In this document: piece by piece, positions 44,440-64,000 of the stretch
Numbering within the stretch: position 1 is the first letter of the stretch
Layout: each line of letters starts with the position of its first letter
NCBI RefSeq assembly: GCF_009720385.1
Contig: NZ_ML769301.1
Location: forward strand, 434,001-498,000
DNA from: Catellatospora vulcania
GTDB lineage: Bacteria > Actinomycetota > Actinomycetes > Mycobacteriales > Micromonosporaceae
Length of the DNA: 64,000 bases
Direction of reading: 5' to 3'
Position numbers and translations under genes: made by a program
Notes under the pieces: model-generated
The model's input: the letters and a program-made list of their open reading frames with translations, nothing else
Databases searched by the model: none
What the model was told of the DNA's origin: nothing

Positions 44440-44997
44440 TTATTCGAGGTTGTCCCGGGAGATCGGCGGGCCGATCCGGAAGTCCCGGAAGGTGGCCTCC
44501 AGGCCGGCCCGCTCGGGCGAGCAGCACATGACGCCGACGTCGACGGTGGCCGGCAGGTCGAGGTGGCCGAGTCGGAGCAGCTGCCACGGGCCGTCCGTGC
44601 TGCGGCAGTGCACGGTCAGGGCTTCGCCGAAGCGGGTGACCCGCATCGAGAGTTCGCCGCGGTGCCCCGGCACGGCCACCATCGACACGTCGGAGAACTC
44701 GCGGGTGTAGACGGTGCTGACGTGCACGGCGCCGGACGTGACTTCGAGACCGGTCTTCAACCAGTTGCGCTCGTCGGCCCGGACCATCATGCCCGCCTGG
44801 TCGAACAGGGTCGTGTGGGTGGCGGACACGACGACTTCGGCGGTGAAGTCGCCGGTCACGGATCGGTGATAGAAGTGCCCGTTGTCGGTGACCCACCCGT
44901 AGAAGGTCTTACGCCAGAAGTCCGTCCGCAGGCCGGTGACGGCGCGCAGGACGCCGCCGTCCAGTGACCACTCGGCCGGTTCGTTGAACCAGGACAT
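44440..44997 (-). CDS. DUF1349 protein (concanavalin-like fold)
   Basis: This 185-residue protein is a single DUF1349 domain: MSWFNEPAEWSLDGGVLRAVTG, then TDFWRKTFYGWVTDNGHFYH and FDQAGMMVRADERNWLKTGLE. The fold is a jelly roll related to laminin-G/concanavalin lectins. There is no signal peptide. It is the second gene after the GH38 alpha-mannosidase and probably co-transcribed with it, so it may bind or process cytoplasmic glycan fragments. A GTG four codons upstream is an alternative start. Confidence 0.82.
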   Translation of the reverse strand: MSWFNEPAEWSLDGGVLRAVTGLRTDFWRKTFYGWVTDNGHFYHRSVTGDFTAEVVVSATHTTLFDQAGMMVRADERNWLKTGLEVTSGAVHVSTVYTREFSDVSMVAVPGHRGELSMRVTRFGEALTVHCRSTDGPWQLLRLGHLDLPATVDVGVMCCSPERAGLEATFRDFRIGPPISRDNLE

Positions 44998-45019
44998 CCC
45001 CGTAAGCACAGCGGCGAGC

Positions 45020-48000
45020 CTAACGGCCGCCAGGGATCCGCGGGTGCCCGGTGAATCTCAAGGTGAGGATCTGGAACGGCCGAAGTCTCAGGTCGACGTG
45101 GGTGACACCGGCCTCGCCGACCGACGGCGCGGGGCCGCTGCCGGCCAGCGGGTCCTCCATCAGATCGGTGACCTGGACGGTGGCGTCCGGCACGGTGACG
45201 GTCAGCCGCGCCGAAGCCTGGCTGCCCCGGGATTCGTACAGCCGCACGACGATGTCCCCGCTGCGGTCGTCGGCCAGCTTGACCGCCTCGATGACGACGC
45301 CGTCGTCGTCGATGCCGACCAGCGGCGCGACACCTCGCCCGCCCGTGACCCGGCGGACCGGCAGATTCAGCTGGTATCCGCCGCGGACCGCGTCGACGAT
45401 GTCCGCGCCGGGCAGCAGCACGTGCCGGAACCGGTGCGTGCCCTGGTCGGTGCCGGGGTCGGGGAAGTGCGGCGCGCGCAGCAGGGAGACCCTGATCATG
45501 GTCGCCGTCCGGCCGCGCGCGTCCTGGACCCGGGTCACCTCGTGGCCGTAGGTGCCGTCGTTGAGCAGCGCCACCCCGTAGCCCGGCTCGCCCACGTGCA
45601 CCCACCGGTGGGCGCACATCTCGAACTTGGCGGCATCCCAGCCGGTGTTGGCGTGCGTCGGGCGCATGACGTGCCCGTACTGGATCTCGGAGGCCGACCG
45701 GTCGGCGAGCACGTCGACTCCGAACGCGAGCTTGAGGATCTTCTCGCTCTCGTGCCAGGACACCTCGGTGTCGATGTCGAGTCCGGCCTGCCCGGCCGCC
45801 AGGCTGATCCGCTGGACCATGGACGAGTCCCCGAACCGCCGCACCGTCAGCACCGTGCACTCGTCCGGGGTCGCGGCTTCGACACGGACGTCCTCGGCCG
45901 GCAACTCGGTCGCGGTGTGGCGGTAGTGCGGGTCGAGCTCCCCGGCGTCCCACGCGTGCGGCACATCCGGGTGCAGCTGCACGAGGTTCGCGCTCAGCCC
46001 ATCGGGGACCACCTCCCGCCCGACACGCAGATCGACCAGGGAGGAGATCAGTCCGGTGCGGTCCACGCTCACCCGGAGCAGACCGTTGTCCAGCACGATC
46101 CCGTCGTCTCCGGCGACTGCGGTCACCGGCGCGGACGGTTCCCGTGTGCCACCGTGGGTCAGGACCGCGCCCATCGCCGGCAACCCGTCGCGGCCGTGCG
46201 GCGCGGCGTTGAACAGCACCGGTGTGCTGCCGGGCCCGGCGAGGGCGTGCAGCGCGCCGTCGATGATCTCTTCCAGTTCGCCGCACACGCGGGCATAGGT
46301 CTGCTCGGCCTCCTGGTGCACCCAGGCGATCGAGCTGCCCGGCAGGATGTCGTGGAACTGGTGCAGCAGCACCGTCTTCCACAGCCGGTCCAGGTCGTCG
46401 TGGGGGTACTCGGCCGCCCCCGCCACGGCCGCGGCGCTCGCCCACAGTTCGGCCTCGCGCAGCAGGTGCTCGCTGCGCCGGTTGCCGCGCTTGGTGCGGG
46501 ACTGGCTGGTGTAGGTGCCGCGGTGGAATTCGAGGTACAGCTCACCCGACCACACCGGCGGCTGCGGGTACTCCGCCTGCGCGGCCTCGAAGAACTCCGC
46601 CGGCGAGCGCATGGTGACCTGCGGCGAGCCTTCCAGGTCGGCGGTCCGCCGCGCTCTGGCGATCATCTCGCGGGTGGGGCCGCCGCCGCCGTCGCCCCAG
46701 CCGAACGGCACGAGCGAGCGGGTCGCGCGGCCCTTCTCCGCGAAGTTGCGGGCCGCGTGGGCCAGCTCGGCCGCCGACAGCTCGCTGTTGTAGGTGTCCA
46801 CCGGCGGGAAGTGGGTGAAGATCCGGCTCCCGTCGATGCCCTCCCAGGTGAAGGTGTGGTGCGGGAAGCGGTTGGTCTGGTTCCACGACAGCTTCTGCGT
46901 CAGGAACCACTGTGCGCCCGCCAACCGCATGAGCTGGGGCAGCGCCGCGGTGTAGCCGAACGAGTCGGGCAGCCACACCTCCCGGGTGTCGAGGCCGAAC
47001 TCGCGGTCGTAGAAGCGCTTGCCGTGCACCAGCTGCCGGGCCAGGGACTCGCCGCCGGGCAGGTTGGTGTCCGACTCGACCCACATCCCGCCCACGGGGA
47101 CGAACCGGCCTGCCGCCACCTGTTCCTTGATCCGGGCGTACAGCTGCGGGTGGTTGTCCTTCATCCAGGCGAGCTGCTGCGCCTGCGACATCGCGAAGCG
47201 GAAGTCATCGTGCTCGGCCATCAGCGCGGTGACGTTGGCCGTGGTCCGGGCGACCTTGCGCACCGTCTCGCGCAGCGGCCACAGCCAGGCGGTGTCGATG
47301 TGCGCGTGGCCGATCGCGGTGATCTGGTGCGCGCTGGCGTGCGCGCGGCGCGACAGCACGTCGCGCAGCTGCTCGCGGGCGGCGTCGGCGGTGCCCGCGA
47401 CGTCGGCCGGGTCGGTCACGTCCAGGCAGCGTTCGACGGCGCGCAGGATCTCGAACCGGCGGGCGTCGTGCAGGCTCAGCTCAGCCATGAGCTGGGAGAG
47501 GACTTCCAGGTCCTGGACCAGTTCCCAGACCTGCCGTGCGAAGACCGCCAGCTCGATCCGGCCCAGCCGGTACAGCGGCTCGGTGCCGGCGGTGGCGCGG
47601 TCGCCCAGCTCGGTCCTGCTCCAGGGCAGGCCGATCAGCGGGTTGGCCGCCGCTTCGACGAGGAAGCCCACCTCCTCGCCGCCCCGGGCGGGCCGGGCGA
47701 CGGGCAGGTGGCCGCTGCGCGGGTGCAGTCCTTTGACGATCTGCCCGTCCAGGGTGTACGCCAGGCCCTCGCACTGGAATCCCGGGCGGTCGGCGTCGAA
47801 ACCGAGGTCGACCAGCGCTTCGACCTCGCGCCCGGCCCACTCGGGTGGCACGGAGCCGGTGATGCGGAACCAGGCCGTGCCCCAGGGCGCACCCCACCGG
47901 TCGCCGGGAGCCGCGGGCCGGTAGTCCGCGGCTGCGGCTTCAGCGAACGGGACCGGCTCGCCCGGGGCGTGCCATACATACGCCGTCAGCGGGGTCGTCG

Positions 48001-48079
48001 CGGAGTGGACCGCGGGGCGGATCCGTTCGGCCAGCAGCCGCCGCAGCCGCTTCTCCACCAGAACCCGATCGTCGTGCAT
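45020..48079 (-). CDS. GH38 alpha-mannosidase
   Basis: The 1019-residue enzyme is a typical long bacterial class II alpha-mannosidase. The zinc site AIGHAHIDTAWLWPL (H-x-H-x-D) is near residue 258, and LPDSFGYTAALPQLM near 370 contains the nucleophile Asp. A beta-rich C-terminal half runs to the end (LRPFQILTLRF). No signal peptide is seen, so it should trim imported mannosides in the cytoplasm. The ATG at 48079 is preferred, with GAGGT upstream, over a start 39 codons earlier that would include the operator. It is divergent from the DUF4185 lipoprotein gene. Mannose caps or a mannan core of imported glycans are candidate substrates. Confidence 0.93.
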   Translation of the reverse strand: MHDDRVLVEKRLRRLLAERIRPAVHSATTPLTAYVWHAPGEPVPFAEAAAADYRPAAPGDRWGAPWGTAWFRITGSVPPEWAGREVEALVDLGFDADRPGFQCEGLAYTLDGQIVKGLHPRSGHLPVARPARGGEEVGFLVEAAANPLIGLPWSRTELGDRATAGTEPLYRLGRIELAVFARQVWELVQDLEVLSQLMAELSLHDARRFEILRAVERCLDVTDPADVAGTADAAREQLRDVLSRRAHASAHQITAIGHAHIDTAWLWPLRETVRKVARTTANVTALMAEHDDFRFAMSQAQQLAWMKDNHPQLYARIKEQVAAGRFVPVGGMWVESDTNLPGGESLARQLVHGKRFYDREFGLDTREVWLPDSFGYTAALPQLMRLAGAQWFLTQKLSWNQTNRFPHHTFTWEGIDGSRIFTHFPPVDTYNSELSAAELAHAARNFAEKGRATRSLVPFGWGDGGGGPTREMIARARRTADLEGSPQVTMRSPAEFFEAAQAEYPQPPVWSGELYLEFHRGTYTSQSRTKRGNRRSEHLLREAELWASAAAVAGAAEYPHDDLDRLWKTVLLHQFHDILPGSSIAWVHQEAEQTYARVCGELEEIIDGALHALAGPGSTPVLFNAAPHGRDGLPAMGAVLTHGGTREPSAPVTAVAGDDGIVLDNGLLRVSVDRTGLISSLVDLRVGREVVPDGLSANLVQLHPDVPHAWDAGELDPHYRHTATELPAEDVRVEAATPDECTVLTVRRFGDSSMVQRISLAAGQAGLDIDTEVSWHESEKILKLAFGVDVLADRSASEIQYGHVMRPTHANTGWDAAKFEMCAHRWVHVGEPGYGVALLNDGTYGHEVTRVQDARGRTATMIRVSLLRAPHFPDPGTDQGTHRFRHVLLPGADIVDAVRGGYQLNLPVRRVTGGRGVAPLVGIDDDGVVIEAVKLADDRSGDIVVRLYESRGSQASARLTVTVPDATVQVTDLMEDPLAGSGPAPSVGEAGVTHVDLRLRPFQILTLRFTGHPRIPGGR

Positions 48080-48170: not shown

Positions 48171-48182
48171 GAAATCGATTTC
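48171..48182. promoter_or_regulatory. Operator GAAATCGATTTC between GH38 and DUF4185 genes
   Basis: A perfect 12-bp palindrome with central CG, typical of LacI-family operators. It is placed 92 bases before the GH38 start and about 118 bases before the DUF4185 start. It repeats exactly before the FGGY kinase and with one change before the lacI/GH172 genes. Confidence 0.75.
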
Positions 48183-48299
48183 GCGCTGTTAGGCAAGGTT
48201 TTCCGAGGTCAGTTACGCAGGGGTTGGGCGGCTCTTGACGAAACCGATTTCCTGGGGTTCACTGCTAGCCATCCTGCTCCCGACGAGAAGGGCGGACAC

Positions 48300-49439
48300 A
48301 TGCCGGCAACGCGCATGACACTCCGCCGCTCCCGTCGTGACTGGACGGCGGCACTGATCCTCGCCGTCGTGGTCGCGTCCACCGGCTGCACCACCCGAGG
48401 AGGGCAGATGAACCCGAGACCAGACCTGCCCTTCGTGCTGGCGGGCTTGGCCAATGTGCAGCGGGTCGCGCAGCTGACCGGCCCGGACTCGGCGAACCGC
48501 ACCGATCGGGTGGCGATCGCCGGCACCGACCTGGGTTCGATGTTCGAGGCCGACGGCAAGGTCTGGTTCGTCTTCGGCGACACGTTCGGGTTCCGGGAGC
48601 CGGGTTTCACCGGTGGCGGCGGGGAGCAGTGGCGTTCCAACGCGCTGGCCCACACCACCGACACCGACCCGGCCGACGGCATCACGTTCGACGGCTTCGT
48701 CGTCGACGAGCACGGCGCGGCCAAGGAGCTGCTCGGCTCCGAGAAGGTCGACTTCAGCGAGATGACGGTGATCCCGACCTACGGGTTCGCCGCGAACGGC
48801 GCTATGTACCTCGCCTACATGTCCGTCCGCCACTGGGGCGAGCCGGGCGAGTGGGAGGTCAACCATGCGGGCCTGGCCAAGTCGACCGACCACGGGCAGA
48901 CCTGGGCCAAACTCGCCGCGCCGACCTGGCCGGGAGACAGCAACTTCGTCCAGGTCAGCGTCGCCGAAGTCGACGGAGACCTCTACTTCTGGGGCGTCAT
49001 GCACGGCCGCTTCGGCGGCGTGCAGCTGATGAAGGTGGCCCCGACGCAGGTCGAGGTCCCTGACGCCTACCGGTACTTCGCCGGCACGGCCGCCGACGGC
49101 ACGCCGTCGTGGTCGGATGACCGGGCCGCGGCGCGCACCATCGTCGACGACACGGTCGGCGAGCTGTCCGTGGTGTGGAGCGAGCACCTGTCCCGGTGGC
49201 TGATGTCCTACACCAACGGCGGGGGAGCCGGCGCGAGCCTGCGCGAGGGCCTGACGCCGTGGGGGCCGTGGGGTGACGCGATCACCCTGGTCTCCGCGGC
49301 CGACGTGCCCGGTCTCTACTCGCCTTACATGCTCCCGCGGTACACCGCGGACGGGGGCGCAACCATCTATTTCACGCTATCGGTCTGGGACCCGTACAAC
49401 GTCTTCTGGTACCGGGCCGACCTGGTCAGCAGAGCCTGA
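48300..49439 (+). CDS. DUF4185 (GH183-type) protein, probable lipoprotein
   Basis: The 379-residue precursor has a basic-hydrophobic leader ending in a lipobox-like STGC near residue 36, so it is probably lipid-anchored at the outer face of the membrane. The DUF4185 domain fills the rest: AIAGTDLGSMFEADGKVWFVFGDTFG, QWRSNALAHTTDTDPADG, LAYMSVRHWGEPGEWEVN and the end SVWDPYNVFWYRADL. DUF4185 proteins were assigned to GH183 as endo-D-arabinofuranases that cut mycobacterial arabinan. It is a paralogue of the secreted protein at the right edge. It heads an importer operon behind a GAAATCGATTTC site. Confidence 0.88.
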   Translation: MPATRMTLRRSRRDWTAALILAVVVASTGCTTRGGQMNPRPDLPFVLAGLANVQRVAQLTGPDSANRTDRVAIAGTDLGSMFEADGKVWFVFGDTFGFREPGFTGGGGEQWRSNALAHTTDTDPADGITFDGFVVDEHGAAKELLGSEKVDFSEMTVIPTYGFAANGAMYLAYMSVRHWGEPGEWEVNHAGLAKSTDHGQTWAKLAAPTWPGDSNFVQVSVAEVDGDLYFWGVMHGRFGGVQLMKVAPTQVEVPDAYRYFAGTAADGTPSWSDDRAAARTIVDDTVGELSVVWSEHLSRWLMSYTNGGGAGASLREGLTPWGPWGDAITLVSAADVPGLYSPYMLPRYTADGGATIYFTLSVWDPYNVFWYRADLVSRA

Positions 49440-49495: not shown

Positions 49496-50818
49496 ATGCG
49501 CAGACGCGGCATAGTTTTGCTCGCGATAGCAGCTGTCACTGCGTCCACGGCGCTGAGCGCATGCGGTGGTGGTAGTGAGGACCCGGCCGGCAAGACCACC
49601 GTCACGTTCTGGCAGCAGAAGTTCGAGGACTACCAGCAGGCGTGGTTCAAGAAGCACGTCGACGCGTACAACGCCTCGCAGGACAAGGTGAAGGTCGACC
49701 TGCAGGTCGTGCCCGCCGACACCTGGGCGCAGAAGCTGAAGGCGGCGCAGGCGGCCGGCAAGGCGCCCGACATCGCGACCACGAGCTACGGCAACGTCGC
49801 GCCGGGCGCGGCCCAGAGCCAGTTCGCCCCGCTCGACGACCTGCTGCCCGCCGAGGCGTTCACCGACATCAAGGACAACGTCAAGGGCTTCGTCACGGTC
49901 GGCGGCAAGCACTACGCGTACCCGATGCTGGTCGAACCGTCGACGGTGCTCTACTACCGCACCGACCTGGTGACCGCGGCCGGTCTGGACCCGACCAATC
50001 CGCCCAAGACCTGGGACGAGCTGCTCCAGTGGGCGACCAAGCTGACCCAGGGCAAGGTCAAGGGCATGACGATCGCGTCCGCCGGGCCCGACCTCGGCTG
50101 GTCCAGCTGGGGCCTGCAGTACAACGCCTGCGGGCGGCTGCCGATCAACGACGACTGGTCCAAGTCCACGGCGACCGAGCCGTGCTTCGAGAAGCTGCTG
50201 GACTTCTACAAGACCCTCTACCAGAGCGGCCTGATCCCGAAGACGCCCAAGGTCGGCTATGCCGACGGCGCGCCGTACGGGCAGGGCGAGGTCGCGATGA
50301 TGGCCGGCGGCTCGTGGGTGATCGGGCAGCTCAAGAACGACTTCAAGGCGATGGTCCCGAAGACCGCCGTGGCCGCGTTCCCGTCGATCGACGGCGACCC
50401 GGCCAAGACGACCGCGACGCTGGGCGGGTGGACGCTGACCGTCGACGCCAAGTCCAAGGGCAAGCAGCAGGCCGCCGACTTCGTGAAGTACCTGCTGGCC
50501 GGGGACCCGGCGATCATGGCCGACTTCTTCAAGACGAGCGGCTTCTCCAAGTACACCGTGCGCACCTCGGTCGACCAGGCCCTCGCGGGCAACCCCGACG
50601 CGACGTCGGACCCGTTCATGAAGGTCATCTCCGAGAAGGTCGTGCCGTACGGCAAGCAGGAGCCCGCGTACCCGTGGGACATCTCGCTGGCCTTCGGCAC
50701 CGCGATCGAGTCGGCGATGAAGGGCAAGGCCGACGTGCCGACGTCGCTGAAGACGGCAGCGGCCGCCATCGACGACGTCATCAAGAAGCAGTCGCTGGCC
50801 GGGACTGCGCCGAAGTAA
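49496..50818 (+). CDS. Sugar ABC transporter substrate-binding lipoprotein
   Basis: This 440-residue family-1 solute-binding protein has a lipobox LSAC with Cys23. The mature part includes VTFWQQKFEDYQQAWFKKHVDAYN near the start, APDIATTSYGNVAPGAAQ, YAYPMLVEPSTVLYYRTDLV and GEVAMMAGGSWVIGQL, a typical carbohydrate-binding layout. It should deliver oligosaccharides to the two permeases downstream. GGAGGAG precedes the ATG. A hairpin separates it from the first permease, which often allows more binding protein than permease to be made. Confidence 0.93.
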   Translation: MRRRGIVLLAIAAVTASTALSACGGGSEDPAGKTTVTFWQQKFEDYQQAWFKKHVDAYNASQDKVKVDLQVVPADTWAQKLKAAQAAGKAPDIATTSYGNVAPGAAQSQFAPLDDLLPAEAFTDIKDNVKGFVTVGGKHYAYPMLVEPSTVLYYRTDLVTAAGLDPTNPPKTWDELLQWATKLTQGKVKGMTIASAGPDLGWSSWGLQYNACGRLPINDDWSKSTATEPCFEKLLDFYKTLYQSGLIPKTPKVGYADGAPYGQGEVAMMAGGSWVIGQLKNDFKAMVPKTAVAAFPSIDGDPAKTTATLGGWTLTVDAKSKGKQQAADFVKYLLAGDPAIMADFFKTSGFSKYTVRTSVDQALAGNPDATSDPFMKVISEKVVPYGKQEPAYPWDISLAFGTAIESAMKGKADVPTSLKTAAAAIDDVIKKQSLAGTAPK

Positions 50819-50883: not shown

Positions 50884-51849
50884 TTGACTGCTCTCGACTC
50901 GCGGGTCGCCGTGCCGGCGGACCCGGCCCCGGACGGCGTCGCGCCGCAGCGCCGCGGGCGGCGGGCCGCCCGCCGCGGCCGGGACAACCGCACCGCGTAC
51001 CTGATGATCGCCCCGATGGTCGTGCTGCTGGGCATCTTCGTGATGTGGCCGCTGGTCTACTCGGTGTACCTGAGCACCTTCAAGATCAGCTTCTACGAGG
51101 AGCCGGAATTCGTCGGCCTGGACTTCTACCAGTACGTGCTGGACAGCCCGCGCTTCTGGGAGTCGATCTGGGTCGGCCTCTACTACGCCGTGCTCACCGT
51201 GCCGACCGGCATCGTCATCGCACTGCTGCTGGCCAGTTTCATCAAGACGCTCAGCCGCCGCGCGGCCGCGTTCATGAAGACCACCGTGTACCTGCCCGCC
51301 GTCGTCTCGACGGTGGTCGCCTCGGTCCTGTTCGTGTTCATGTACCAGGACGAAGGCGTCGTCAACTGGATGCTCGGCCTGCTGAACCGCGGCCCGGTCA
51401 ACTGGCTCAACGACCCCGGCTACGCGCTGCCCGCCATCGCGGTGCCCGGCATCTGGCTCAGCTTCGGCATCACCACGCTCATCCTGCTGGCCGGCCTGCT
51501 GGACATCCCGGAGAACTACTACGAGTCGGCGCAGCTCGACGGGGCCGGCTTCTTCGCCCGGCTGTTCCGCATCACCATCCCGCTGCTGAAGAACGTGCTG
51601 CTCTACCTGCTGGTCACCGGGTTCACCCTCGCCATCCAGCTGTTCGAGCTGCCGCTGATCATGACGAACGGCGGTCCGGTCGACGCGACCACCACGCCGA
51701 ACCTGTACATCTTCAACAGCTTCCGCGACCTGACGCCGTACGCCACCAGCTTCTCGCTCACCGCGTCGCTGATGCTGTTCGTCGTGCTCGGCGCCATCTC
51801 GCTGGTGATCTTCCGGCTCGTCAACTCCGACAAAGCCATCGACGGCTAG
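50884..51849 (+). CDS. Sugar ABC transporter permease (MalF type)
   Basis: The 321-residue membrane protein has about six helices, with a basic N-terminal tail and MIAPMVVLLGIFVMWPLVYSVYLS as the first helix. The EAA coupling loop reads NYYESAQLDGAGFFARLFRITIPLL near residue 215. The start is probably TTG at 50884, with GAGGGG 7 bases upstream; the next in-frame GTG is 9 codons later. The partner permease follows after 17 bases. No ATPase gene is present, so a shared MsiK-type ATPase elsewhere is expected. Confidence 0.92.
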   Translation: MTALDSRVAVPADPAPDGVAPQRRGRRAARRGRDNRTAYLMIAPMVVLLGIFVMWPLVYSVYLSTFKISFYEEPEFVGLDFYQYVLDSPRFWESIWVGLYYAVLTVPTGIVIALLLASFIKTLSRRAAAFMKTTVYLPAVVSTVVASVLFVFMYQDEGVVNWMLGLLNRGPVNWLNDPGYALPAIAVPGIWLSFGITTLILLAGLLDIPENYYESAQLDGAGFFARLFRITIPLLKNVLLYLLVTGFTLAIQLFELPLIMTNGGPVDATTTPNLYIFNSFRDLTPYATSFSLTASLMLFVVLGAISLVIFRLVNSDKAIDG

Positions 51850-51866: not shown

Positions 51867-52688
51867 ATGAAAAAGACCGTCCCGCAACGGGTCTTCTCCG
51901 CTGTGCTGATCACGCTGATCAGCGTCAGCGTGATGTTCCCCCTGGCCTGGATGGCGATCGCCGGGTTCAAGGGCAAGACCGAGGTGCTGCGCTCGCCGTT
52001 CCAGTTCTTCCCGGACATGTGGCGCTGGGACAACTACTCCGCGATCCTGGCCGACCCGCAGTTCCTGCGGGCGATGGGCATCACCGTCGTCGGCGCGCTC
52101 ATCTTCACCGCGCTGAGCCTGACCGTGAACACCCTGGCGGCGTACGCCTTCGCCCGGCTGGAATTCACCGGCAAGCGCTTCTGGTGGGTCTACTGCCTCA
52201 CCCCGATGTTCATCCCGGCGATGGCGATCCTGCTCACCTCGTTCATGGTGGTGTCCAAGCTCGGCATGCTCGACACCCTCGCCGTGCTGATCATCCCGGG
52301 CGCGGCGTCGTCGGCCCAGATGTTCTTCATCCGGCAGTTCTACCTCGGCTTCCCGATGGCGGTCGAGGAAGCCGCCCTGGTCGACGGCGCGACCCGCTGG
52401 CAGATCTTCGTCCGGGTGTTCCTGCCGCAGTCGGCGGCCCCGTTCGTGGTCATGGGCATCGCCGCCTACCTGGCGTACTGGAACGCCTACGTGTGGCCGG
52501 TGCTCACCATCACCGACCCGGACCTGACCCAGATCATGCAGTTCCTCGGCAACTTCCGCTCCGACCGCGGCAACGACTGGGGCCTGCTGATGGCCGGTTC
52601 CACGCTGGCGTCCCTGCCCACCATCGCGCTGCTGCTCGTCTTCCAGCGGTTCATCGTCAACGGCGTGCGCATCTCGGGCATCAAATGA
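51867..52688 (+). CDS. Sugar ABC transporter permease (MalG type)
   Basis: The 273-residue permease has six helices and the EAA loop FPMAVEEAALVDGATRWQIFVRVFLPQ near residue 170. It ends in the typical QRFIVNGVRISGIK tail of MalG-like proteins. Its stop overlaps the start of the mannitol-dehydrogenase-family gene as ATGA, so transport and catabolism genes are translationally coupled. Confidence 0.93.
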   Translation: MKKTVPQRVFSAVLITLISVSVMFPLAWMAIAGFKGKTEVLRSPFQFFPDMWRWDNYSAILADPQFLRAMGITVVGALIFTALSLTVNTLAAYAFARLEFTGKRFWWVYCLTPMFIPAMAILLTSFMVVSKLGMLDTLAVLIIPGAASSAQMFFIRQFYLGFPMAVEEAALVDGATRWQIFVRVFLPQSAAPFVVMGIAAYLAYWNAYVWPVLTITDPDLTQIMQFLGNFRSDRGNDWGLLMAGSTLASLPTIALLLVFQRFIVNGVRISGIK

Positions 52689-55889: not shown

Positions 55890-58393
55890 GGGAGGTCCTT
55901 CCGATCGAGGGGGTCAGGGGCGGTGAGCTGTACGGCGTCGCCCGCGGCCAGCCGCACCGGGCCAGCGGACAGTGGCCCGTGCACGGGGTGGGTGACGGTG
56001 AGTGCGGCCAGGTCGAGTCGGCCGCCGAGCAGGCGCAGCGACGCGCCGCCGGGGGAGAGGGCCAGCTCGCCCCAGCCGGCGCCGGTGGTGAAGATCGTTT
56101 GCAGCCGGTCGCCGCCGCAGCGCGGCGTGAACGCCAGGGTGCGTGCGACGGCGTCGTAGTCCGCGCCGCTGAGCGCGACGACCAGGCCCCAGCTCGCCAG
56201 GGAGCGGGCGTAGTGGTTGCCGCACTCGACCTCGTTCCACGGGTTGCGCCTGCGGCCGTCGTGCCGGGCGCGCACCGCGCGGACCAGTTGCAGGCCCTCC
56301 TCGACCAGCCCTTCGAAGACCAGATGGGTGGCCACCTGGTACTCGATGCCGGTCCACACCTCGTCGCTGTAGACGAACGGGATGCGCGGGCGGCCGCCGC
56401 GCGGCCACGAGCACAGCAGCAGCCCCGCCTCGTCGTTGAGGGCGTACGTGCGCTGCACGCTGTGGTGGCCGGTCAGCTCGGCGCGGAAGTTGTGCCGGTG
56501 AACCGCCGCGACGGCACTGCGTACGTGCTCGGCGGGCAGCACGTGGCCGAGCCCGGCGACGTGCGCCAGCAGCTGGCCGAACACCTGGTCGGACAGGCAT
56601 CCGGTGCCGTACTGGTAGCGGCGCGCGTCGACGTCGTCAAGCCGCTGCTCGTAGTACTCGCCGTTGAACAACAGCGCGTCCATCCGTGCCGCGCCCGTGG
56701 CCGCCGCATCGCGGTAGCGCTGCGCAGCCGCGGCGTCGCCCATCCGGTCGGCGATGGCCGCCCCGGCGGTCAGGGCGGCGAAGAACATCGAGTTCGCGAG
56801 GGAGTTCGGGCCGTGGAACTCGATGTCGTAGGTGTTGTGCTGCTCGCTGTCGAGCACGCCGTCGCCGTCGGTGTCCCAGGCGGTGAACGCGAACTCCAGC
56901 GCCCGCTGCGCACCCGGCCAGCAGTCGGCCAGCAACACGTCGTCGCCGCTGAAACGCCATTCGCGGAACAGCCGCACGATCGCGCCGAGCTGCCCGTCGA
57001 CCGCCGGGTGGAAGTCCCACGGCTCGTTGCCGAACACGCTGTTGGCGCGGAAGTTCATCCGGCCGTCGGGCCGGGTCTCGTGCGTGAACTCGGTGCGCCG
57101 GGCGTCGCGTTCCAGCTCCGGGAACAGGAACGCGGCCGTCTGTGCGTAGTTCCACACGTGCGTGCAGGTGCCCTCGCAGCTGCCGCCGTCGTCGAAGCTG
57201 CCCTCCCAGGCGGCGAAACGCCCGCCCGCCAGCCGGAAGCAGGTGGTGCTGCGCAGCGCGACCAGGGTCGAGCCGACCGCGTCGGCCACCTCCGGCGGCA
57301 GCGTGCCGCCGAACAGTGCCCCGTGGAAGGCGCGGGTGTGCCGTTCCAGCTCCGGCAGGTCGGCGGCGAGTCGGCGGGCGACGGCCCAGGCGTCGGCGTA
57401 CGCCGTGGCGTAGTGGTTGCGGACCACCTCGCCGGCGTGCGTGTTGTCGAGATTGATGTTGCCCTGCCAGGCCCGCGGACGGTTCGGGAAGTGCCAGGTG
57501 AGCAGGAACTCGAAGTCCCTGCTCGCGCCGGGGGCGAGCCGATGCGCGATGCCGAGCGAGCCCACTCGCAGCCGGGTGAACCAGTCCGGATAGGGCGGCT
57601 CGTCGATGCTGAACGCGGTCTCCGGCGTCAGCCGCCCGGTGGCGCACAGCTCGTCCCAGAACACCTGGACGCCGTCCTGCCAGAACCCGGACAGCCACTG
57701 CGGTTTGGCCGTCGTGTCCGGGTCGGTGGTGGACAGCGCGGCGGTGCCGTGGCGCAGATCGTCGTCGGGCAGGTCGCTGCTGAACCGGATACCGCGCAGC
57801 CCGCCGTCGTCGGCCCAGTCGTTGGCCGGCTGCCCGGCGTACCGCGGGAAGTGGTGCACGTCGTAGCCGGTGACGCCGACCGGGTTGGCCAGCGAGCCGA
57901 CGATGGTGACGTCGGCGTCGACGTCGAGGGGGTTGGTCACCGTGTAGCGCAGCACCGCGCCGGGGATGCCGGAGGCGTCCGCGTCCAGCGGCACCAGCGG
58001 CGTGAACGCCGTCAACGCCACCTGTACCCCGAGGTCGTCGTCGGCGAAGTCGACCCGCAGCAGCGGATACTCGCCGAACATCCGGCTGTCGCGCAGCCGC
58101 GGCAGCCCGGCCAGCTGACCGGCGTAGTAGCCCTGGTCTCCCTCGTGCGGCCCGGTCAGCCGCGACTCCAGGATCCGGGTGACGGCCGTGCCGCCGGCGG
58201 GGGCGGCGCGGATCGCGAAGAAGCTGAACGGCAGCCGCGCGCCTTTGGCGGGCCGGTTGGCCAGCTCCCAGTCGCGCAGCTCGCCGCGCGCGCCGATCGA
58301 CACGTTGCCGGTGCCGATGCCGCCGAGCGGGAAGGCCGCGGCCGAGGCATCCGGGCCGAGGCCCGGGGGAGCGTTTTCAGGGTGCACGGGCAT
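55886..58393 (-). CDS. GH116 glycoside hydrolase
   Basis: The 835-residue enzyme shows GH116 signatures: FPLGGIGTGNVSIGARGELR near the N-terminus, ANRPAKG, GTCTHVWNYAQTAAFLFPELE near residue 420, and SEQHNTYDIEFHGPNSL near 520. These belong to the GBA2-like family of retaining hydrolases. GH116 includes beta-glucosidases, beta-xylosidases and an exo-D-arabinofuranosidase acting on mycobacterial arabinan. There is no signal peptide, so it acts on imported sugars. I chose the ATG at 58393, 11 bases after GGAGG; a GTG four codons earlier overlaps that site. Neighbouring GH172 and DUF4185 genes favour the arabinofuranosidase reading. Confidence 0.88.
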   Translation of the reverse strand: MPVHPENAPPGLGPDASAAAFPLGGIGTGNVSIGARGELRDWELANRPAKGARLPFSFFAIRAAPAGGTAVTRILESRLTGPHEGDQGYYAGQLAGLPRLRDSRMFGEYPLLRVDFADDDLGVQVALTAFTPLVPLDADASGIPGAVLRYTVTNPLDVDADVTIVGSLANPVGVTGYDVHHFPRYAGQPANDWADDGGLRGIRFSSDLPDDDLRHGTAALSTTDPDTTAKPQWLSGFWQDGVQVFWDELCATGRLTPETAFSIDEPPYPDWFTRLRVGSLGIAHRLAPGASRDFEFLLTWHFPNRPRAWQGNINLDNTHAGEVVRNHYATAYADAWAVARRLAADLPELERHTRAFHGALFGGTLPPEVADAVGSTLVALRSTTCFRLAGGRFAAWEGSFDDGGSCEGTCTHVWNYAQTAAFLFPELERDARRTEFTHETRPDGRMNFRANSVFGNEPWDFHPAVDGQLGAIVRLFREWRFSGDDVLLADCWPGAQRALEFAFTAWDTDGDGVLDSEQHNTYDIEFHGPNSLANSMFFAALTAGAAIADRMGDAAAAQRYRDAAATGAARMDALLFNGEYYEQRLDDVDARRYQYGTGCLSDQVFGQLLAHVAGLGHVLPAEHVRSAVAAVHRHNFRAELTGHHSVQRTYALNDEAGLLLCSWPRGGRPRIPFVYSDEVWTGIEYQVATHLVFEGLVEEGLQLVRAVRARHDGRRRNPWNEVECGNHYARSLASWGLVVALSGADYDAVARTLAFTPRCGGDRLQTIFTTGAGWGELALSPGGASLRLLGGRLDLAALTVTHPVHGPLSAGPVRLAAGDAVQLTAPDPLDRKDLP

Positions 58394-58453
58394 GAGGGGG
58401 TACACCTCCGTCCAGGGGTCGACGGGTGAGCGGGAGTCGTCGGGGCGGGACTG

Positions 58454-59962
58454 TCAGCGGGTGGCGCGCTGCCGCTCACGGTCGGCGAGGGCGTGCACGA
58501 TCGGCGCGGTGGCCGGATACAGGTCGAGGTAGAGCGCGTACAGCTGGTCGTACTCGGCGCGGACCGACGGCTGCGGGGTCCGCGTCTGCACGATCGGGTT
58601 CCACTGCCCGATGTCGGGGTCGGCGACCGCCCCGGCGGCCAGGAACGCCGCGCCGAACGCGGCCCCGATGGTCTGGGCGGGGACGGCCTGCTCCCGCCCG
58701 GTCACATCGGACACGATCTGCGTCCACAGGCTGCCCTGCGCGCCGCCCCCGACGGCGACGATCCGCTCCACGCGCCCGCCCGCCTGCTCGATCGCGGCCA
58801 CGTTGTGCCGTACGCCGAACGCCGTCGCCTCCAGCGCCGCCCGATACAGGTCGCCGCGGGTGTGCGCGACGGTCAGCCCGGCGAGCACGCCGCGCGCGTC
58901 GGGATCGGCGACCGGGGTCCGCTCCCCGGCGAAGTAGGGCAGCATGAGCAGCCCGTGCGCGCCCGGCCCGGCGGCCTCGGCCAGCGCCAGCAGCTCCGGG
59001 TAGCCGGGCGAGCCGAACAGCTCGCGCAGCCACCCGGTGATCGCGCCGGAGGTGGCCATGCCGCCGGCGAGGTTGCGGGTGCCGGGCAGCGCGCCGACCG
59101 TGCCCCACAGCGTCGGCGAGGTCAGCGGCCTGTCCACGGTGTTGATGAGGAACATGGTGGTGCCGTACATGAGCATCAGGTCGCTGACCCGGTGCGCGCC
59201 GACGCTGATCGCCTCGGACCAGGCGTCGATCGTGCCCGCGATGACGGGCGTGCCGGGGGCGAGGCCGGTCTCGGCGGCGGCCGCGGCGGACACGCCGCCG
59301 ACGGTGTCGCCGGGCCACACCAGCGGCGGCAGCTGCGCCCCGGCGGCGACCTCGCCCGCCCAGGGGCCGTGCCAGCCCTGCGTGCCCGCGTCGTACATCG
59401 GGGTGCACTGGCTGGCCGAGTGGTGGTCCAGGTAGTAGGCCCCGGTGAGTTTCCAGCCGAGCCAGGTGCTGGGCTGGAAGAACCGCCAGTCGCCCGCGAC
59501 GGCCTGCGGCTCGTGCTCGGCCAGCCAGGCCAGCTTCGGCCCGACCGCCTGCGTGCTCAACGACGACCCACACCGCTCCCGGATCGCGTCGGCCCCGCCG
59601 AGCCGCTCGGTCAGGCGCTCGATCTGCGCGGTGGCCCTGGTATCGATGCCATAGAGCACCGCGGGCCGTCGCGGCTCGCCCGCGAGGTCGGTGACCAGCA
59701 CACACGGGCCCATCCCGCTCACGCCGACGGAGCGGACCTGGCCCGGCTCGGGCGCGTCCGGCGCGGCCAGCAGCTGGCGGATGATGCCGACTGCCTCGTC
59801 CCACCAGACGCGGGGGTCCATCTCGACATGACCCGGCGCGGGCCGCTGCACCTCGTGCTCGCGGGTGGCGGTGGCGACGATCGTGCCGTCGAGCGTGACG
59901 AGCACGCCCTTGCTGCTCGACGTTCCGATGTCGACGCCGAGGACACAGGCTTGCCTCAACAT
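58454..59962 (-). CDS. FGGY-family carbohydrate kinase
   Basis: The 502-residue kinase has the two actin-like FGGY domains: VLGVDIGTSSSKGVLVTLDG at the start, the substrate region GHVEMDPRVWW, the second-domain phosphate loops LMLMYGTTMFLI and MATSGAITGWLREL, and the adenosine motif VGGGAQGSLWTQIVSDVTG. The family phosphorylates xylulose, ribulose, glycerol or gluconate. Next to a fucose-isomerase-like enzyme a D-ribulokinase role is attractive, but sequence alone does not separate it from xylulokinase. It heads the operon kinase-GH116-isomerase, and a GAAATCGATTTC operator sits 16 bases before its ATG. Confidence 0.88.
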   Translation of the reverse strand: MLRQACVLGVDIGTSSSKGVLVTLDGTIVATATREHEVQRPAPGHVEMDPRVWWDEAVGIIRQLLAAPDAPEPGQVRSVGVSGMGPCVLVTDLAGEPRRPAVLYGIDTRATAQIERLTERLGGADAIRERCGSSLSTQAVGPKLAWLAEHEPQAVAGDWRFFQPSTWLGWKLTGAYYLDHHSASQCTPMYDAGTQGWHGPWAGEVAAGAQLPPLVWPGDTVGGVSAAAAAETGLAPGTPVIAGTIDAWSEAISVGAHRVSDLMLMYGTTMFLINTVDRPLTSPTLWGTVGALPGTRNLAGGMATSGAITGWLRELFGSPGYPELLALAEAAGPGAHGLLMLPYFAGERTPVADPDARGVLAGLTVAHTRGDLYRAALEATAFGVRHNVAAIEQAGGRVERIVAVGGGAQGSLWTQIVSDVTGREQAVPAQTIGAAFGAAFLAAGAVADPDIGQWNPIVQTRTPQPSVRAEYDQLYALYLDLYPATAPIVHALADRERQRATR

Positions 59963-59977
59963 GCCCGTACCCTGTCA

Positions 59978-59989
59978 GAAATCGATTTC
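59978..59989. promoter_or_regulatory. Operator GAAATCGATTTC before the FGGY kinase
   Basis: Exact copy of the 12-bp palindrome found at 48171-48182. Its position only 16 bases from the kinase start suggests that bound repressor would block RNA polymerase directly. Confidence 0.75.
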
Positions 59990-60030: not shown

Positions 60031-61008
60031 TCAGCCGACGGGGGTGAGCTGGTTGCGCAGCACGATGGTGCGGGCCGGCTGGTCGTCGCCGTTGATCCGC
60101 TCCAGCAGCAGCTTCGCGGCGGTGGTGCCCAGGTGCCGGGCAGGCATGTGCACCACGGTGATCGGGATCGGCACCAGCGGCAGGAAGGGCAGGTCGCCGA
60201 AGACGGCGACGCCGGTCGCCGGTGGAAGCTTGCCCTGCTCGGACAGCACCCGCAGGGCGCCGACGCTCATCAGGTTGTTGGCCACGAACACGGCGTCCGG
60301 CGGCTCGGGCATGGCGAGCAGGTCACTCATCGCCGCCGCGCCGCCGTCGACCCGGAAGTCGGCGTATCGCAGGTAGCGGTCGTCGGCCTCGGCCGCCCGG
60401 CCGCCGGTGACCGCGTCGCGCCAGCCGTCGGCGCGCTGCGTGGCCGTCTCGACGTCGCTCGGGCCGGTGATGCAGGCGATCCGCTGGAAACCCTGCTCCA
60501 CCAGGGCTTGGGTGGCGGCCCGCCCGCCGGCCCGGTTGTCGACGATGACCGCGTCCACGTCCACGCCGTGCGGGCTGCGGTCGACCGCCACGACCGGGCA
60601 CTTGCGGGCGAGCAGGCCGCTCAGGTCGCTGTTGCCGCCGGCCGCCGCGATGATCACGCCGGCCATGGTGGCGCTGAGCGCGATGTCGAGGTAGCGCAGT
60701 TCCTTCTCGTGGTCCTCGTCGGTGTTGCACAGCACCACCGAGTAGCCGGCGGCACGGGCCACGTCCTCGACGCCGCGGGCCAGCGCGGTGAAGAACGGGT
60801 TCTCGATGTCCGGGATGACCAGGGCGATCACCTCGGAGCTCTGCAACCGCAGGGTGCGTGCGGTGCGGCTCGGGGTGAACGCGAGTGCCTTGGCCGCCTT
60901 GCGCACCGCCTCGGCCTTCTCGGCGGACACGTTGGCGCCGTTGAACACGCGCGAGACGGTCGCGGGGGACACCCCGGCCGCCGCGGCGACCTCGTAGATC
61001 GTTGGCAT
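60031..61008 (-). CDS. LacI-family transcriptional repressor
   Basis: The 325-residue regulator has the LacI helix-turn-helix TIYEVAAAAGVSPATVSRVFNG, hinge helix region FTPSRTARTLRLQ and a sugar-binding domain (ALVIPDIENPFFTALARGVE, then VAVDRSPHGVDVDAVIVDN). The start at 61008 follows GAGGAAG; a start 31 codons earlier would add an unrelated tail. It is divergent from the GH172 gene, and a GAAATCGATTGC site lies between them, so it probably represses itself and the locus until a sugar such as a released arabinose or oligosaccharide binds. It is the only LacI gene in the window. Confidence 0.93.
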   Translation of the reverse strand: MPTIYEVAAAAGVSPATVSRVFNGANVSAEKAEAVRKAAKALAFTPSRTARTLRLQSSEVIALVIPDIENPFFTALARGVEDVARAAGYSVVLCNTDEDHEKELRYLDIALSATMAGVIIAAAGGNSDLSGLLARKCPVVAVDRSPHGVDVDAVIVDNRAGGRAATQALVEQGFQRIACITGPSDVETATQRADGWRDAVTGGRAAEADDRYLRYADFRVDGGAAAMSDLLAMPEPPDAVFVANNLMSVGALRVLSEQGKLPPATGVAVFGDLPFLPLVPIPITVVHMPARHLGTTAAKLLLERINGDDQPARTIVLRNQLTPVG

Positions 61009-61112: not shown

Positions 61113-61124
61113 GAAATCGATTGC
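61113..61124. promoter_or_regulatory. Operator variant GAAATCGATTGC between lacI and GH172
   Basis: Differs from the other two palindromes at one base. It is 105 bases from the lacI start and 57 bases before the GH172 start, so one repressor could act on both divergent genes. Confidence 0.7.
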
Positions 61125-61180
61125 AGACCGGTGCCCTTCGCCGCGCCGTCGAACCTGCCCCGCATCGTCGAGGAGAGCTT

Positions 61181-62302
61181 GTGGTCACCGTGGACCTCAG
61201 TACGATCGCACGGCTCAGGGCCGTGCAGACCCGCTCGATCAGCCCGGAGAACTTCGACGGTTCGGCCGGTGGCGGGGGCCGGGCGACCGAGGGCACCGGG
61301 GCCGCCTGCGCCCGCGATCTCGGGCCGGGCTGGAAGATCTCGCCCAGCGTCGACATCGCCGCCGGCGAGACCTTCGACCTGGCGTCGATCCAGGGCCCCG
61401 GCAAGATCACGCACATCTGGATCACCACGCACAAGGACAACTGGCGCACGCTGCTGCTGCGGGCGTACTGGGACGGCAGCGACGAACCGGCGATCGAGGT
61501 GCCCTACGGCGACTTCTTCTGCAGCGGCTGGGGCGAGTTCGCCCAGGTCGACTCGCAGGTCATCGCCGCGAACCCGCACGGCGGCTTCAACTCGTACTGG
61601 CCCATGCCGTTCACCGACGGCGCCCGGCTGACCGTGGAGAACCTGTCCGCGGTCAGCGTCCGGGTCTACTACCAGATCACGTACGAGATCGGCGGCGACT
61701 ACTCCGGCCTGGGCTACCTGCACGCCCAGTGGCGGCGCAGCAACCCCCTGGAGCACCTCAAGACCCACGTGCTGGTCGACGGGGTCGAGGGCAGCGGCCA
61801 CTACGTCGGCACCTACCTGGCCTGGGGGGTCAACAGCAACGGCTGGTGGGGCGAGGGTGAGATCAAGTTCTACCTCGACGACGACGAGGAGTACCCCACC
61901 ATCTGCGGCACCGGCACCGAGGACTACTTCGGCGGGGCGTGGAACTTCGACGTGCCCGGCAAGGGCTACACCGCCTACTCCACGCCGTACCTCGGTTTGC
62001 CCCAGGTGATCCGCCCCGACGGGCTCTACGTCAGCCAGCAGCGCTTCGGCATGTACCGCTGGCACCTGCCCGACCCGATCCACTTCGCGCAGCGGCTGCG
62101 GGTCGACATCCAGGCGCTGGGCTGGCGCTCGGGCTGGCGCTACCTGCCACTGCGCGACGACATCGCCTCGACCGCCCTGTTCTACCTCGACCGGCCCACG
62201 GCACGCCGCCCGCGCACGCCCAGCGCCGACGACCTGGAGGTCCATTTGGGCGCGGCCCCCGTGCCGGACCTCGGGGCACAGCCGCCGCGCATGCCGGACT
62301 GA
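61181..62302 (+). CDS. GH172 (DUF2961) glycoside hydrolase
   Basis: The 373-residue enzyme is a DUF2961/GH172 protein: SISPENFDGSAGGGGRATEG near the N-terminus, the double jelly-roll core GPGKITHIWITTHKDNW, EVPYGDFFCSGWG, GEGEIKFYLDDDEEYPTICG and the conserved GTGTEDYFGGAWNF with a likely catalytic Glu near residue 246. Characterised GH172 members are alpha-fructofuranosidases or exo-alpha-D-arabinofuranosidases acting on arabinogalactan or lipoarabinomannan. No signal peptide is seen. It starts at GTG 61181, five bases after AGGAG, with a second GTG three codons on. Confidence 0.9.
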   Translation: MVTVDLSTIARLRAVQTRSISPENFDGSAGGGGRATEGTGAACARDLGPGWKISPSVDIAAGETFDLASIQGPGKITHIWITTHKDNWRTLLLRAYWDGSDEPAIEVPYGDFFCSGWGEFAQVDSQVIAANPHGGFNSYWPMPFTDGARLTVENLSAVSVRVYYQITYEIGGDYSGLGYLHAQWRRSNPLEHLKTHVLVDGVEGSGHYVGTYLAWGVNSNGWWGEGEIKFYLDDDEEYPTICGTGTEDYFGGAWNFDVPGKGYTAYSTPYLGLPQVIRPDGLYVSQQRFGMYRWHLPDPIHFAQRLRVDIQALGWRSGWRYLPLRDDIASTALFYLDRPTARRPRTPSADDLEVHLGAAPVPDLGAQPPRMPD

Positions 62303-62378
62303 CCGGCACACGTTTCACCGGGACGGCAGGCCGCACCCGGCGGCTCGCCGTGCCCGCGACATGGAAGGAGTACCGCAC

Positions 62379-63941
62379 ATGCACCCGCACAACGGACTCA
62401 GATCCATCCCGCGTCTGCTCACCGGCGTCGCCCTGACGCTGGGCACCGTGGCCGCCACCGGCCTCGTCCTCGCCACCCCGGCCGCAGCCAGCCCCGCGCA
62501 CACCCCGGCGAGCCTGGTCCAGAAGATCACCGGCCCGAACTCCCCGAACAACACGTACGGCCGCTGGAACGTGAAGGCGACCGACCTCGGCATCCTCTGG
62601 GACAACGGCTCCGGCCAGACGATGGCCCTGTTCGGCGACACGTTCGGCGACGCCTGGATCGGCCCCGGCGGCGGCGCGTTCGGCGCCGGCGACCTGAACT
62701 GGCGCAGCAACGTGCTGCTGCGCTCCACCGACACCAACCTCGCCGACGGCATGTCGTTCGCCAGCGCCGTCACCGCCGCCGACGGGCGGGCCAGGGAGAT
62801 CCTGCCCGGCCTGCACCAGCCCGACAACACGGGCGAGGTCACCAAGATCCCCACCGCGGGCATCGCGGTCGGCGCCCGGCAGTACGTTTCGTTCATGTCG
62901 GTGCGCCACTGGGGCGCCCCCGGCCAGTGGACCACCAATTACGCCAAGCTCGCCTACTCCGACGACAACGGCACGACCTGGTCCACCACGAACACCCCGA
63001 CCTGGAACAACCCGTCGTTCAACGACCAGTTCCAGATGCACGCGTTCGAGCGCCGCGACGGCTACCTCTACGTCTTCGGCACCCCCAGCGGCCGCAGCGG
63101 CAGCATCCGGCTGGCCCGGGTCCCCGAGGCGCAGGTCCTGACCCAGAGCGCCTACCAGTACTGGAACGGCAGCAGCTGGGTGACGAACAACGTCGCCGCC
63201 GCCACCCCGATCGTCGGCGCGCCCGCCGCCGAGCTGTCCGTGCGCTACGACGCCTACAGCGGCCGCTGGCTGATGATGTACCTGTCCGGCGAGGACATCA
63301 TCCTGCGCACCGCGACCAGCCCCACCGGCCCGTGGAGCGGCGCGCAGATCGCCGTCAGCTCGGCCGACTATCCCGGCTTGTACGGCGGCTACATCCACCC
63401 GTGGAGCTCCGGCGGCAACATCTACTTCGCGATGTCGCAGTGGGACCCGTACAACGTGTACCTGATGAAGGTCCGGATCAACACCGCGGGGCAGCTCGTC
63501 GACCCGAACCTGATGGGCGACCCGAGCTTCGAGCGCGGCGCGCTCAACGGCACCGGCACCGGCGGCTTCTGGGCCTGCAAGGGCAACTGCGGCCTGGACA
63601 GCGGCTACTGGGGCTACACCGGGGTGCGCAACGGCTACGCCCGCTACAACAGCGGCTGGCACGACCTGCACCAGACGGTGAACGTCACCGCGAACACCAA
63701 CTACCAGCTCAGCGGATGGCTGCGGACCTCACCCAACAGCGACAACGGCTTCTTCGGCGTACGCGGCACCAACGACGTGGTCATCGCCGAGGCGAACTTC
63801 CGCGCGGTCGGGCCGTGGACCCGCTTCACGGTGAACTTCAACAGCGGCTCGCGCACCGCGGTCACCGTCTTCGGCGGCGTGTGGACCGACCACGGCGACA
63901 TCTGGGTTCAGCTCGACGACTTCTCCCTCACCCGCGTCTGA
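62379..63941 (+). CDS. Secreted DUF4185 (GH183-type) protein with C-terminal binding domain
   Basis: The 520-residue precursor has a long Sec signal (to about residue 42, ending PAAAS). The DUF4185 domain follows at ~45-380: KATDLGILWDNGSGQTMALFGDTFG, LNWRSNVLLRSTDTN, YVSFMSVRHWGAPGQW and SQWDPYNVYLMKVR. A ~135-residue C-terminal beta-sandwich (LMGDPSFERGALNGTGTGGF to DIWVQLDDFSLTRV) looks like a carbohydrate-binding module. GH183 enzymes of this domain are endo-D-arabinofuranases, so this would open extracellular arabinan. AAGGAG lies 8 bases before the ATG. It follows GH172 and precedes another gene on the same strand. Confidence 0.9.
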   Translation: MHPHNGLRSIPRLLTGVALTLGTVAATGLVLATPAAASPAHTPASLVQKITGPNSPNNTYGRWNVKATDLGILWDNGSGQTMALFGDTFGDAWIGPGGGAFGAGDLNWRSNVLLRSTDTNLADGMSFASAVTAADGRAREILPGLHQPDNTGEVTKIPTAGIAVGARQYVSFMSVRHWGAPGQWTTNYAKLAYSDDNGTTWSTTNTPTWNNPSFNDQFQMHAFERRDGYLYVFGTPSGRSGSIRLARVPEAQVLTQSAYQYWNGSSWVTNNVAAATPIVGAPAAELSVRYDAYSGRWLMMYLSGEDIILRTATSPTGPWSGAQIAVSSADYPGLYGGYIHPWSSGGNIYFAMSQWDPYNVYLMKVRINTAGQLVDPNLMGDPSFERGALNGTGTGGFWACKGNCGLDSGYWGYTGVRNGYARYNSGWHDLHQTVNVTANTNYQLSGWLRTSPNSDNGFFGVRGTNDVVIAEANFRAVGPWTRFTVNFNSGSRTAVTVFGGVWTDHGDIWVQLDDFSLTRV

Positions 63942-63967
63942 AACCGGGCCATCCCACCGGAGGAACC

Positions 63968-64000
63968 ATGGACCAGCACACCCTGCCCCGCGCGGTCAGC
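63968..64000 (+). CDS. Start of a further gene in the GH172/DUF4185 operon (3' truncated)
   Basis: An ATG preceded by GGAGGAA opens a frame that runs off the right edge. Only 11 residues (MDQHTLPRAVS) are visible, too few to identify it. Its 26-base spacing from the DUF4185 stop suggests the same operon, so the locus continues beyond the window. Confidence 0.6.
   Translation, partial: MDQHTLPRAVS

Follow-up and report, generated by a model that had tools for sequence, protein, structure and literature searches.

A 64,000-nucleotide stretch of the Catellatospora vulcania genome (contig NZ_ML769301.1, positions 434,001 to 498,000), referred to here as the window, carries at 44440–64000 a gene cluster that an earlier note had read as a probable locus for the use of mycobacterial D-arabinan. 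Thirteen genes were found between 40 and 64 kb by combining codon-position GC content and Pfam, and secretion signals were judged by eye from the translations, with no predictor. The minus strand first carries a DUF1349 protein, a possible accessory component (44440..45009; Pfam 1.3e-57), and a GH38 alpha-mannosidase (45020..48079; Pfam 3.7e-96), the latter in a frame that extends to 48196 and with its start inferred from where the matches to relatives end. The plus strand continues with GH183a, a predicted endo-D-arabinanase with a lipoprotein-type signal (48300..49439, in a frame open from 48078; DUF4185 1.2e-90), the SBP_bac_8 substrate-binding protein of an ABC importer (49496..50818; Pfam 1.7e-34), its two permeases, read from their frames (50905..51849, with an approximate start, and 51867..52688), and a mannitol/D-arabinitol-dehydrogenase-like enzyme (52685..54076), assigned by Pfam, with the top NCBIfam model under its cut-off. 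A perfect 23-nt inverted repeat with a 4-nt loop (54111..54160), probably a two-way terminator, separates this operon from the converging one. The latter, on the minus strand, contains an L-fucose-isomerase-like protein, probably a D-arabinose isomerase (54252..55889), GH116, predicted to be an ExoMA2-type exo-beta-D-arabinofuranosidase (55886..58405; two Pfam domains, 5.8e-51 and 2.8e-44), and an FGGY kinase, probably a D-ribulokinase (58454..59962), in which Pfam gives the family and the substrate is a prediction; a LacI-family regulator lies upstream on the same strand (60031..61008). Finally, the plus strand carries GH172, a predicted ExoMA1-type exo-alpha-D-arabinofuranosidase (61181..62302, start inferred in a frame open from 61121; DUF2961 5.3e-88), and GH183b, a predicted secreted endo-D-arabinanase with a Sec-type signal and a C-terminal domain resembling a carbohydrate-binding module (CBM) (62361..63941; DUF4185 1.9e-118).

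The two DUF4185 proteins, the DUF2961 protein, GH116, GH38, the importer and the catabolic enzymes listed in the earlier note are all present, by Pfam except for the permeases, and its description of export signals on both GH183 proteins and of none on GH172, GH116 and GH38 agrees with the translations, where no signal was seen by eye on these three. The DUF1349 protein, LacI, the operators described below and the C-terminal domain of GH183b had gone unmentioned. No Rfam family was found in 40000–64000, nor any further match to a protein of the locus in the 15 kb past the window (L096), where the window proteins were the queries and no profile search was made.

The enzymes match solved D-arabinan-degrading proteins. 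Across its length, C-domain included, GH183b shares 273 of 475 aligned residues with EndoMA1 (4e-181), its C-terminal part aligning to the EndoMA1 sugar-binding domain, and 16 of the 18 EndoMA1 positions compared are identical, the exceptions being N366, replaced by Ser, and F379, replaced by Tyr. GH183a is more distant (123/306 aligned residues identical, 1.5e-51). The essential acids D33, D51 and E243 of EndoMA1 are kept in both proteins, as D151/D168/E362 in GH183a (ORF numbering). GH172 scores 759 bits (9e-228) against ExoMA1 and 135 against difructose-dianhydride synthase, and it keeps, as N275, the Asn253 of ExoMA1 that is reported to exclude fructofuranose (PMC10509167). Similarly, GH116 scores 909 bits (3e-272) against ExoMA2 and about 91 against beta-glucosidases. 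The nucleophile and acid/base of ExoMA2, E431 and D557, and the substrate residues H446 and R483, reported to be unlike those of beta-glucosidases (PMC10509167), are kept as E401, D527, H416 and R453; in this mapping the PDB chain index was taken as 4 above the numbers in the paper, the only offset that fits all four residue types. Grouping with fructofuranosidases and with beta-glucosidases, which the earlier note had named as refuting outcomes for GH172 and GH116, was on these scores and residues not observed. GH172, GH116 and GH183b are thus, by sequence, close relatives of the solved ExoMA1, ExoMA2 and EndoMA1, with the checked catalytic and specificity residues kept. The proposed exo-D-arabinofuranosidase role of GH116 fits the ExoMA2 match, with the correction that the bond it is expected to cut is that of beta-D-arabinofuranose.

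The combination of GH183, GH172, GH116, an ABC importer, an isomerase and a kinase in one cluster is the gene set of the actinobacterial D-arabinan polysaccharide utilization locus (PUL). That of Microbacterium arabinogalactanolyticum (Shimokawa 2023), whose genes are reported to be induced by D-arabinose and by mycobacterial wall extract (PMC10509167), likewise contains GH183 endo-, GH172 exo-alpha- and GH116 exo-beta-enzymes, an SBP_bac_8 importer, an isomerase and a kinase, and likewise exports its endo-enzymes and keeps its exo-enzymes internal, as is predicted here. The substrate-binding protein of the window and MIAR_33310 of the Microbacterium locus belong to the same Pfam family. Isomerase and kinase steps have been proposed for that system (PMC10509167). 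The isomerase-like protein of the window matches Pfam weakly (1.5e-4), at 22.1 and 20.1 bits against fucose isomerase domains with cut-offs of 28 and 29.3, and its assignment draws also on its conserved place; a relative in L200 reaches 30.6 bits, over the 29.3 cut-off of one such domain. Compared with the Microbacterium PUL, the window adds GH38, DUF1349 and the D-arabinitol-dehydrogenase-like gene, and here a regulator and an operator are proposed, the operator recurring at peptidoglycan-lytic operons elsewhere in the genome. The Bacteroidota locus of Dysgonomonas gadei (Al-Jourani 2023, PMC10115798) also pairs GH183 and GH172 for mycobacterial D-arabinan; the sections of that paper drawn on here mention no coupling to peptidoglycan hydrolases. 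The arabinan core therefore appears to be of an already known kind, and the operator link to lytic genes appears to be new.

Equivalent loci were sought with the window GH172 as query, and the best 80 of 588 confirmed loci were taken, a sample from which very near genomes may have been left out. Fourteen PUL-type loci (L001–L012, L026 and L033), picked from these 80 for a GH172 of at least 77% identity together with a GH183, contain LacI in 14/14, the isomerase in 13/14, GH116 in 13/14 and FGGY in 11/14 of the fetched stretches; none of these 14 stretches contains GH38, the dehydrogenase or DUF1349. One partial GH38 match (32%) occurs among the 80. A set of 151 genomes includes 21 with GH116 at E <=1e-50 and nine, the own genome among them, in which it is at least 76% identical, hereafter called close. 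Seven Streptomyces loci (L030, L032, L034, L038, L044, L050 and L061) carry GH172, LacI (56–59%), the kinase (62–63%) and the isomerase (75–78%), six of the seven with an exact operator, and neither a close GH183 nor a close GH116 appears in the stretches fetched; these loci are perhaps a D-arabinose-only version.

GH38 stands apart from this core. A single copy was found in the own genome, and it lies beside the PUL in three of the nine genomes with close GH116 (the own, G004 and G006). GH38 is missing in G001, where DUF1349 is directly beside GH183a; it is located on another contig in G051 and G027, its neighbours in G051 being an unrelated importer and a LacI gene without an operator, and it was not found at E <=1e-100 in G069, G030 or G011. 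In G010, DUF1349 precedes FGGY-LacI with operators. The closest solved relatives of the window GH38 are the alpha-mannosidases of the 7ufr-7ufu type (7ufs, 833 bits) and Ams1, for which we know of no link to D-arabinan. Since its adjacency is not conserved, GH38 was dropped as a core part of the PUL. The D-arabinan locus of the earlier note is accordingly upheld in its enzymes, their residues and the gene set of the published PUL, and not in the trimming of mannose caps by GH38, which is a guess. Co-regulation of GH38 with GH183a is possible, because they share one double-operator region.

The promoter regions of the locus contain GAAATCGATTTC, a palindrome with a central CG that is conserved across species. 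Exact copies lie in the GH38/GH183a gap (48171..48182) and before the FGGY-GH116-isomerase operon (59978..59989), and copies with one mismatch lie in the same gap (GAAACCGATTTC, 48240..48251) and before GH172 (GAAATCGATTGC, 61113..61124). At up to two mismatches the window holds six sites, against 0.30 expected. The own 8.8-Mb genome holds 10 sites at <=1 mismatch, two of them exact, and the reversed control found none; among 15 relatives the same control found a single site, in G010, and none in the other 14. Among the matches listed, three other same-genus genomes with close GH116 have 12–14 sites at <=1 mismatch. The exact palindrome occurs in 26 of the best 80 of 588 GH172 loci (42 copies), against a mean of 0.025 for 119 control palindromes of equal half-site composition, and in 14/14 equivalent loci. 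When ten genomes with named loci were searched whole, 18 of 20 exact sites fell inside fetched GH172 loci; the other two lie 2.5 kb outside such a locus (G153) and, in Nakamurella aerolata, next to an ABC sugar transporter on a separate contig. Identity of the LacI is 64–95% in five PUL-carrying relatives and 49–51% in three loci with lytic genes. Overlap of the operators with -35/-10 hexamers, an idea formed by eye, was unsupported, the promoter scan giving 0. Among the matches listed, no published title deals with this operator or with peptidoglycan hydrolases in a D-arabinan regulon.

Six own sites lie outside the window, and two of them precede genes for predicted wall-lytic enzymes. The site at C16:132798 (one mismatch) is 67 bp before a three-gene operon whose products all have signal-like starts: a lysozyme-like protein (L097:12783-14231), tentatively assigned from remote profile matches, an Amidase_2 protein, predicted to be an N-acetylmuramoyl-L-alanine amidase (L097:10651-12759; Pfam 4e-29), and GH183c, a third GH183 (L097:8585-10654; Pfam 1.4e-115). 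The site at C7:214024 (one mismatch) is 128 bp before a predicted secreted M23 peptidase (L120:6376-7896; Pfam 7.5e-22). The lysozyme-like domain, a possible SLT/muramidase domain, gave no catalytic Pfam or NCBIfam match; a seven-sequence profile matched PDB chain 8b2h, an SH3b-domain protein, at 1.9e-7 and the muramidase chain 8b2e at 0.0087, and a family comparison pointed to phage endolysin and tape-measure families. An FG-GAP module is common to six own proteins (one query, E <=1e-10): the lysozyme-like protein, the amidase, GH183c, M23, the DUF2961 protein GH172b and a polysaccharide-lyase-like protein on C4. GH172b, encoded beside M23, lacks any site at <=3 mismatches within 400 bp and is for that reason not claimed as a member of the regulon in this genome. 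A protein of about 864 residues with FG-GAP and, in the L134 copy that was profiled, otherwise no Pfam match is encoded near operators in the same-genus genomes G002, G008 and G009, all without close GH116 (L134:4188-6782, L135:7771-10362 and L195:11509-14100).

The association of the operator with the lytic genes is conserved. In G001, G004 and G006 a one-mismatch site, its letters partly different, precedes both the lysozyme-like/amidase unit and M23, so that the operator stands before both lytic units in 4/4 same-genus genomes with the PUL, the own included. The lysozyme-like gene was found at E <=1e-25 in 64 of 354 genomes across the family. A sample of its 30 best-matching loci, which includes the own genome and the three same-genus genomes with the PUL, has a site at <=1 mismatch within 400 bp upstream in 13, against a mean of 0.008 for the 119 control palindromes, in counts that come from related genomes and are not independent. 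Twenty neighbourhoods of the lysozyme-like gene were chosen by hand, three of them for a nearby GH116 or PUL and one being a distant own paralogue; nine (L185, L186, L187, L194, L195, L196, L199, L200 and L203) contain GH183, the isomerase or a related LacI, with a 37% GH183 as the only arabinan-type evidence in L199, seven have only GH172b and four have none of these. In several genomes the lytic genes are located within or next to arabinan-type clusters. G048 and G087 show the order amidase, lysozyme-like, LacI, operators, and then GH183 (51–60%), GH172, importer and GH116, their GH172 and GH116 being just 36–37% identical; the order in G011 is LacI, GH172, GH183b, lysozyme-like, amidase (67–87%); and in G002 and G008 the lytic genes adjoin operators and the gene of a related LacI, together with an importer and a GH172 that are both distant (28–33%).

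From the families, the residues, the gene order and the operator copies with their conservation, we infer a mechanism whose export, repression, inducer, import, substrate, D-ribulose route and lysis of mycolata are predictions. It is likely that this is a LacI-controlled locus for D-arabinan utilization and that a shared regulon couples arabinan use to lysis of the peptidoglycan of mycolata. Outside the cell, the lipid-anchored GH183a and the secreted GH183b, with its arabinan-binding domain, would cut mycobacterial D-arabinan, and the ABC importer would take up the resulting oligosaccharides. Inside, GH116 would remove beta-D-arabinofuranose ends and GH172 alpha-D-arabinofuranose ends, and D-arabinose would be converted by the isomerase to D-ribulose and by the kinase to D-ribulose-5-phosphate, a route that follows the published proposal (PMC10509167). 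LacI would repress through GAAATCGATTTC until D-arabinose or a fragment of arabinan released it. The same operator would also give it control of the secreted lysozyme-like/amidase/GH183c operon and the secreted M23 endopeptidase, so that sensing of D-arabinan would switch on enzymes dissolving the underlying peptidoglycan too. Together with the arabinanases, the predicted hydrolases for three types of peptidoglycan bond would cover much of the mycolyl-arabinogalactan-peptidoglycan. More tentatively, and here we stop short of favouring the idea, the LacI sensor may command a wall-demolition kit of three kinds of secreted peptidoglycan hydrolase (for the glycan strand, the amide and the cross-link) and arabinanases with one FG-GAP module in common, joined to import and catabolism, by which mycobacteria and related bacteria would be lysed or preyed upon and not just scavenged as debris. 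The statement of the earlier note that the organism scavenges cell walls may understate its role, because the regulon seems to include operons predicted to lyse peptidoglycan. A D-arabinanase-type protein also stands among the lysis genes of actinobacteriophage cassettes, and DUF4185 is stated to occur both there and in the predator M. amalyticus (PMC10115798); unlike the phage cassettes, the present genes are cellular, have signal-like starts and are tied to sugar catabolism.

Several observations weigh against the coupling. All own operators outside the window are inexact. Of the ten own sites, three (C1:1488312, C3:350997 and C3:762065) overlap coding sequence or a start and were not counted as regulon, and one, GAAAACGATTTC at GH20/PL8, adjoins another LacI locus and was left out because of that gene. 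Among the matches listed, seven same-genus genomes without close GH116 also hold 4–10 sites at <=1 mismatch, so that conservation is needed to back any single one-mismatch site. A scan for promoters gave no sigma-70-type match, and the polysaccharide-lyase-like FG-GAP protein on C4 has no site. No site was found within 400 bp of 17 of the 30 lysozyme-like genes; of these 17, three have a site about 1.3–1.5 kb upstream, on the far side of a LacI gene, and one has a site about 450 bp away. G007, without close GH116, has amidase, GH183c and GH172b pieces and no site at <=2 mismatches in the surrounding 19 kb; in the stretches fetched from G019 and G046, lytic genes occur without any arabinan gene; and in G001 and G004 no GH183c follows the amidase. 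The locus might then be of the published scavenging type only, the lytic genes being ordinary secreted enzymes and their sites either serving other LacI paralogues or having arisen by chance. It would fit that 19 of the 20 exact operators in the ten named genomes are at, or within 2.5 kb of, fetched GH172 loci, that the own lytic sites have one mismatch, that two genes upstream of the lytic operon there is a different LacI gene (28%), and that the words peptidoglycan, LacI and regulator are absent from the main text of the 2023 article on the published locus. We regard such a restricted role as unlikely, since the sites before the lytic units change letters in the four same-genus genomes and yet stay within one mismatch, since sites upstream of lysozyme-like genes far exceed the control, and since lytic and arabinan-type genes surround a related LacI in other genomes.

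Two further explanations concern the substrate. Mycobacteria carry GH183 proteins proposed to act on their own wall (PMC10115798; PMC10509167), and the GH183 and lytic enzymes could in the same way trim D-arabinan and peptidoglycan of the producer. This is extremely improbable, and it was set aside because the own genome gave no match to PF04602 (Emb), for which the control Corynebacterium glutamicum matches, other arabinosyltransferase families not having been sought. In addition, the locus comes with genes for import and catabolism and is patchy, with close GH116 in 9/151 genomes. As Emb was not found, the arabinan target is probably a foreign wall. The substrate might also be a different polymer containing D-arabinofuranose or D-fructofuranose, or else glycans of plants or fungi, GH38 then acting as a main enzyme, given the likeness of GH38 to solved alpha-mannosidases including Ams1, its presence in 42 of 151 genomes with three shown beside this locus, and the D-arabinan motif reported in a few lipopolysaccharide structures (PMC10115798). 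The match of the enzymes to D-arabinan-specific structures, specificity residues included, makes this very doubtful. These findings offer GAAATCGATTTC as a predicted, specific DNA marker for D-arabinan regulons across actinomycetes, point to lytic enzymes that possibly evolved against arabinogalactan-clad peptidoglycan, and open to direct test the question of whether actinomycetes of this kind use mycolic-acid bacteria as food or kill them.

Other genes were seen near operators or near the locus. Ribose-type ABC transporter genes, perhaps for free D-arabinose, lie beside exact operators in L128, L190, L193 and L201, assigned by Pfam in L201 and by eye in the other three; in L193 a GH43-like protein adjoins GH172b. 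In G087, a PF00756 esterase (L187:18109-19101), whose start looked twin-arginine-like by eye, has an exact operator 30 bp upstream; it may be an acyl or mycolate esterase belonging to the regulon. The GH20 and PL8 genes around the GAAAACGATTTC site, beside the other LacI, occupy L116:7094-11760, and the arrangement recurs in G006 (L137). Within the window, a Pel9A-like beta-helix protein with CBM6, without an operator, lies near the locus at 37828-39612.

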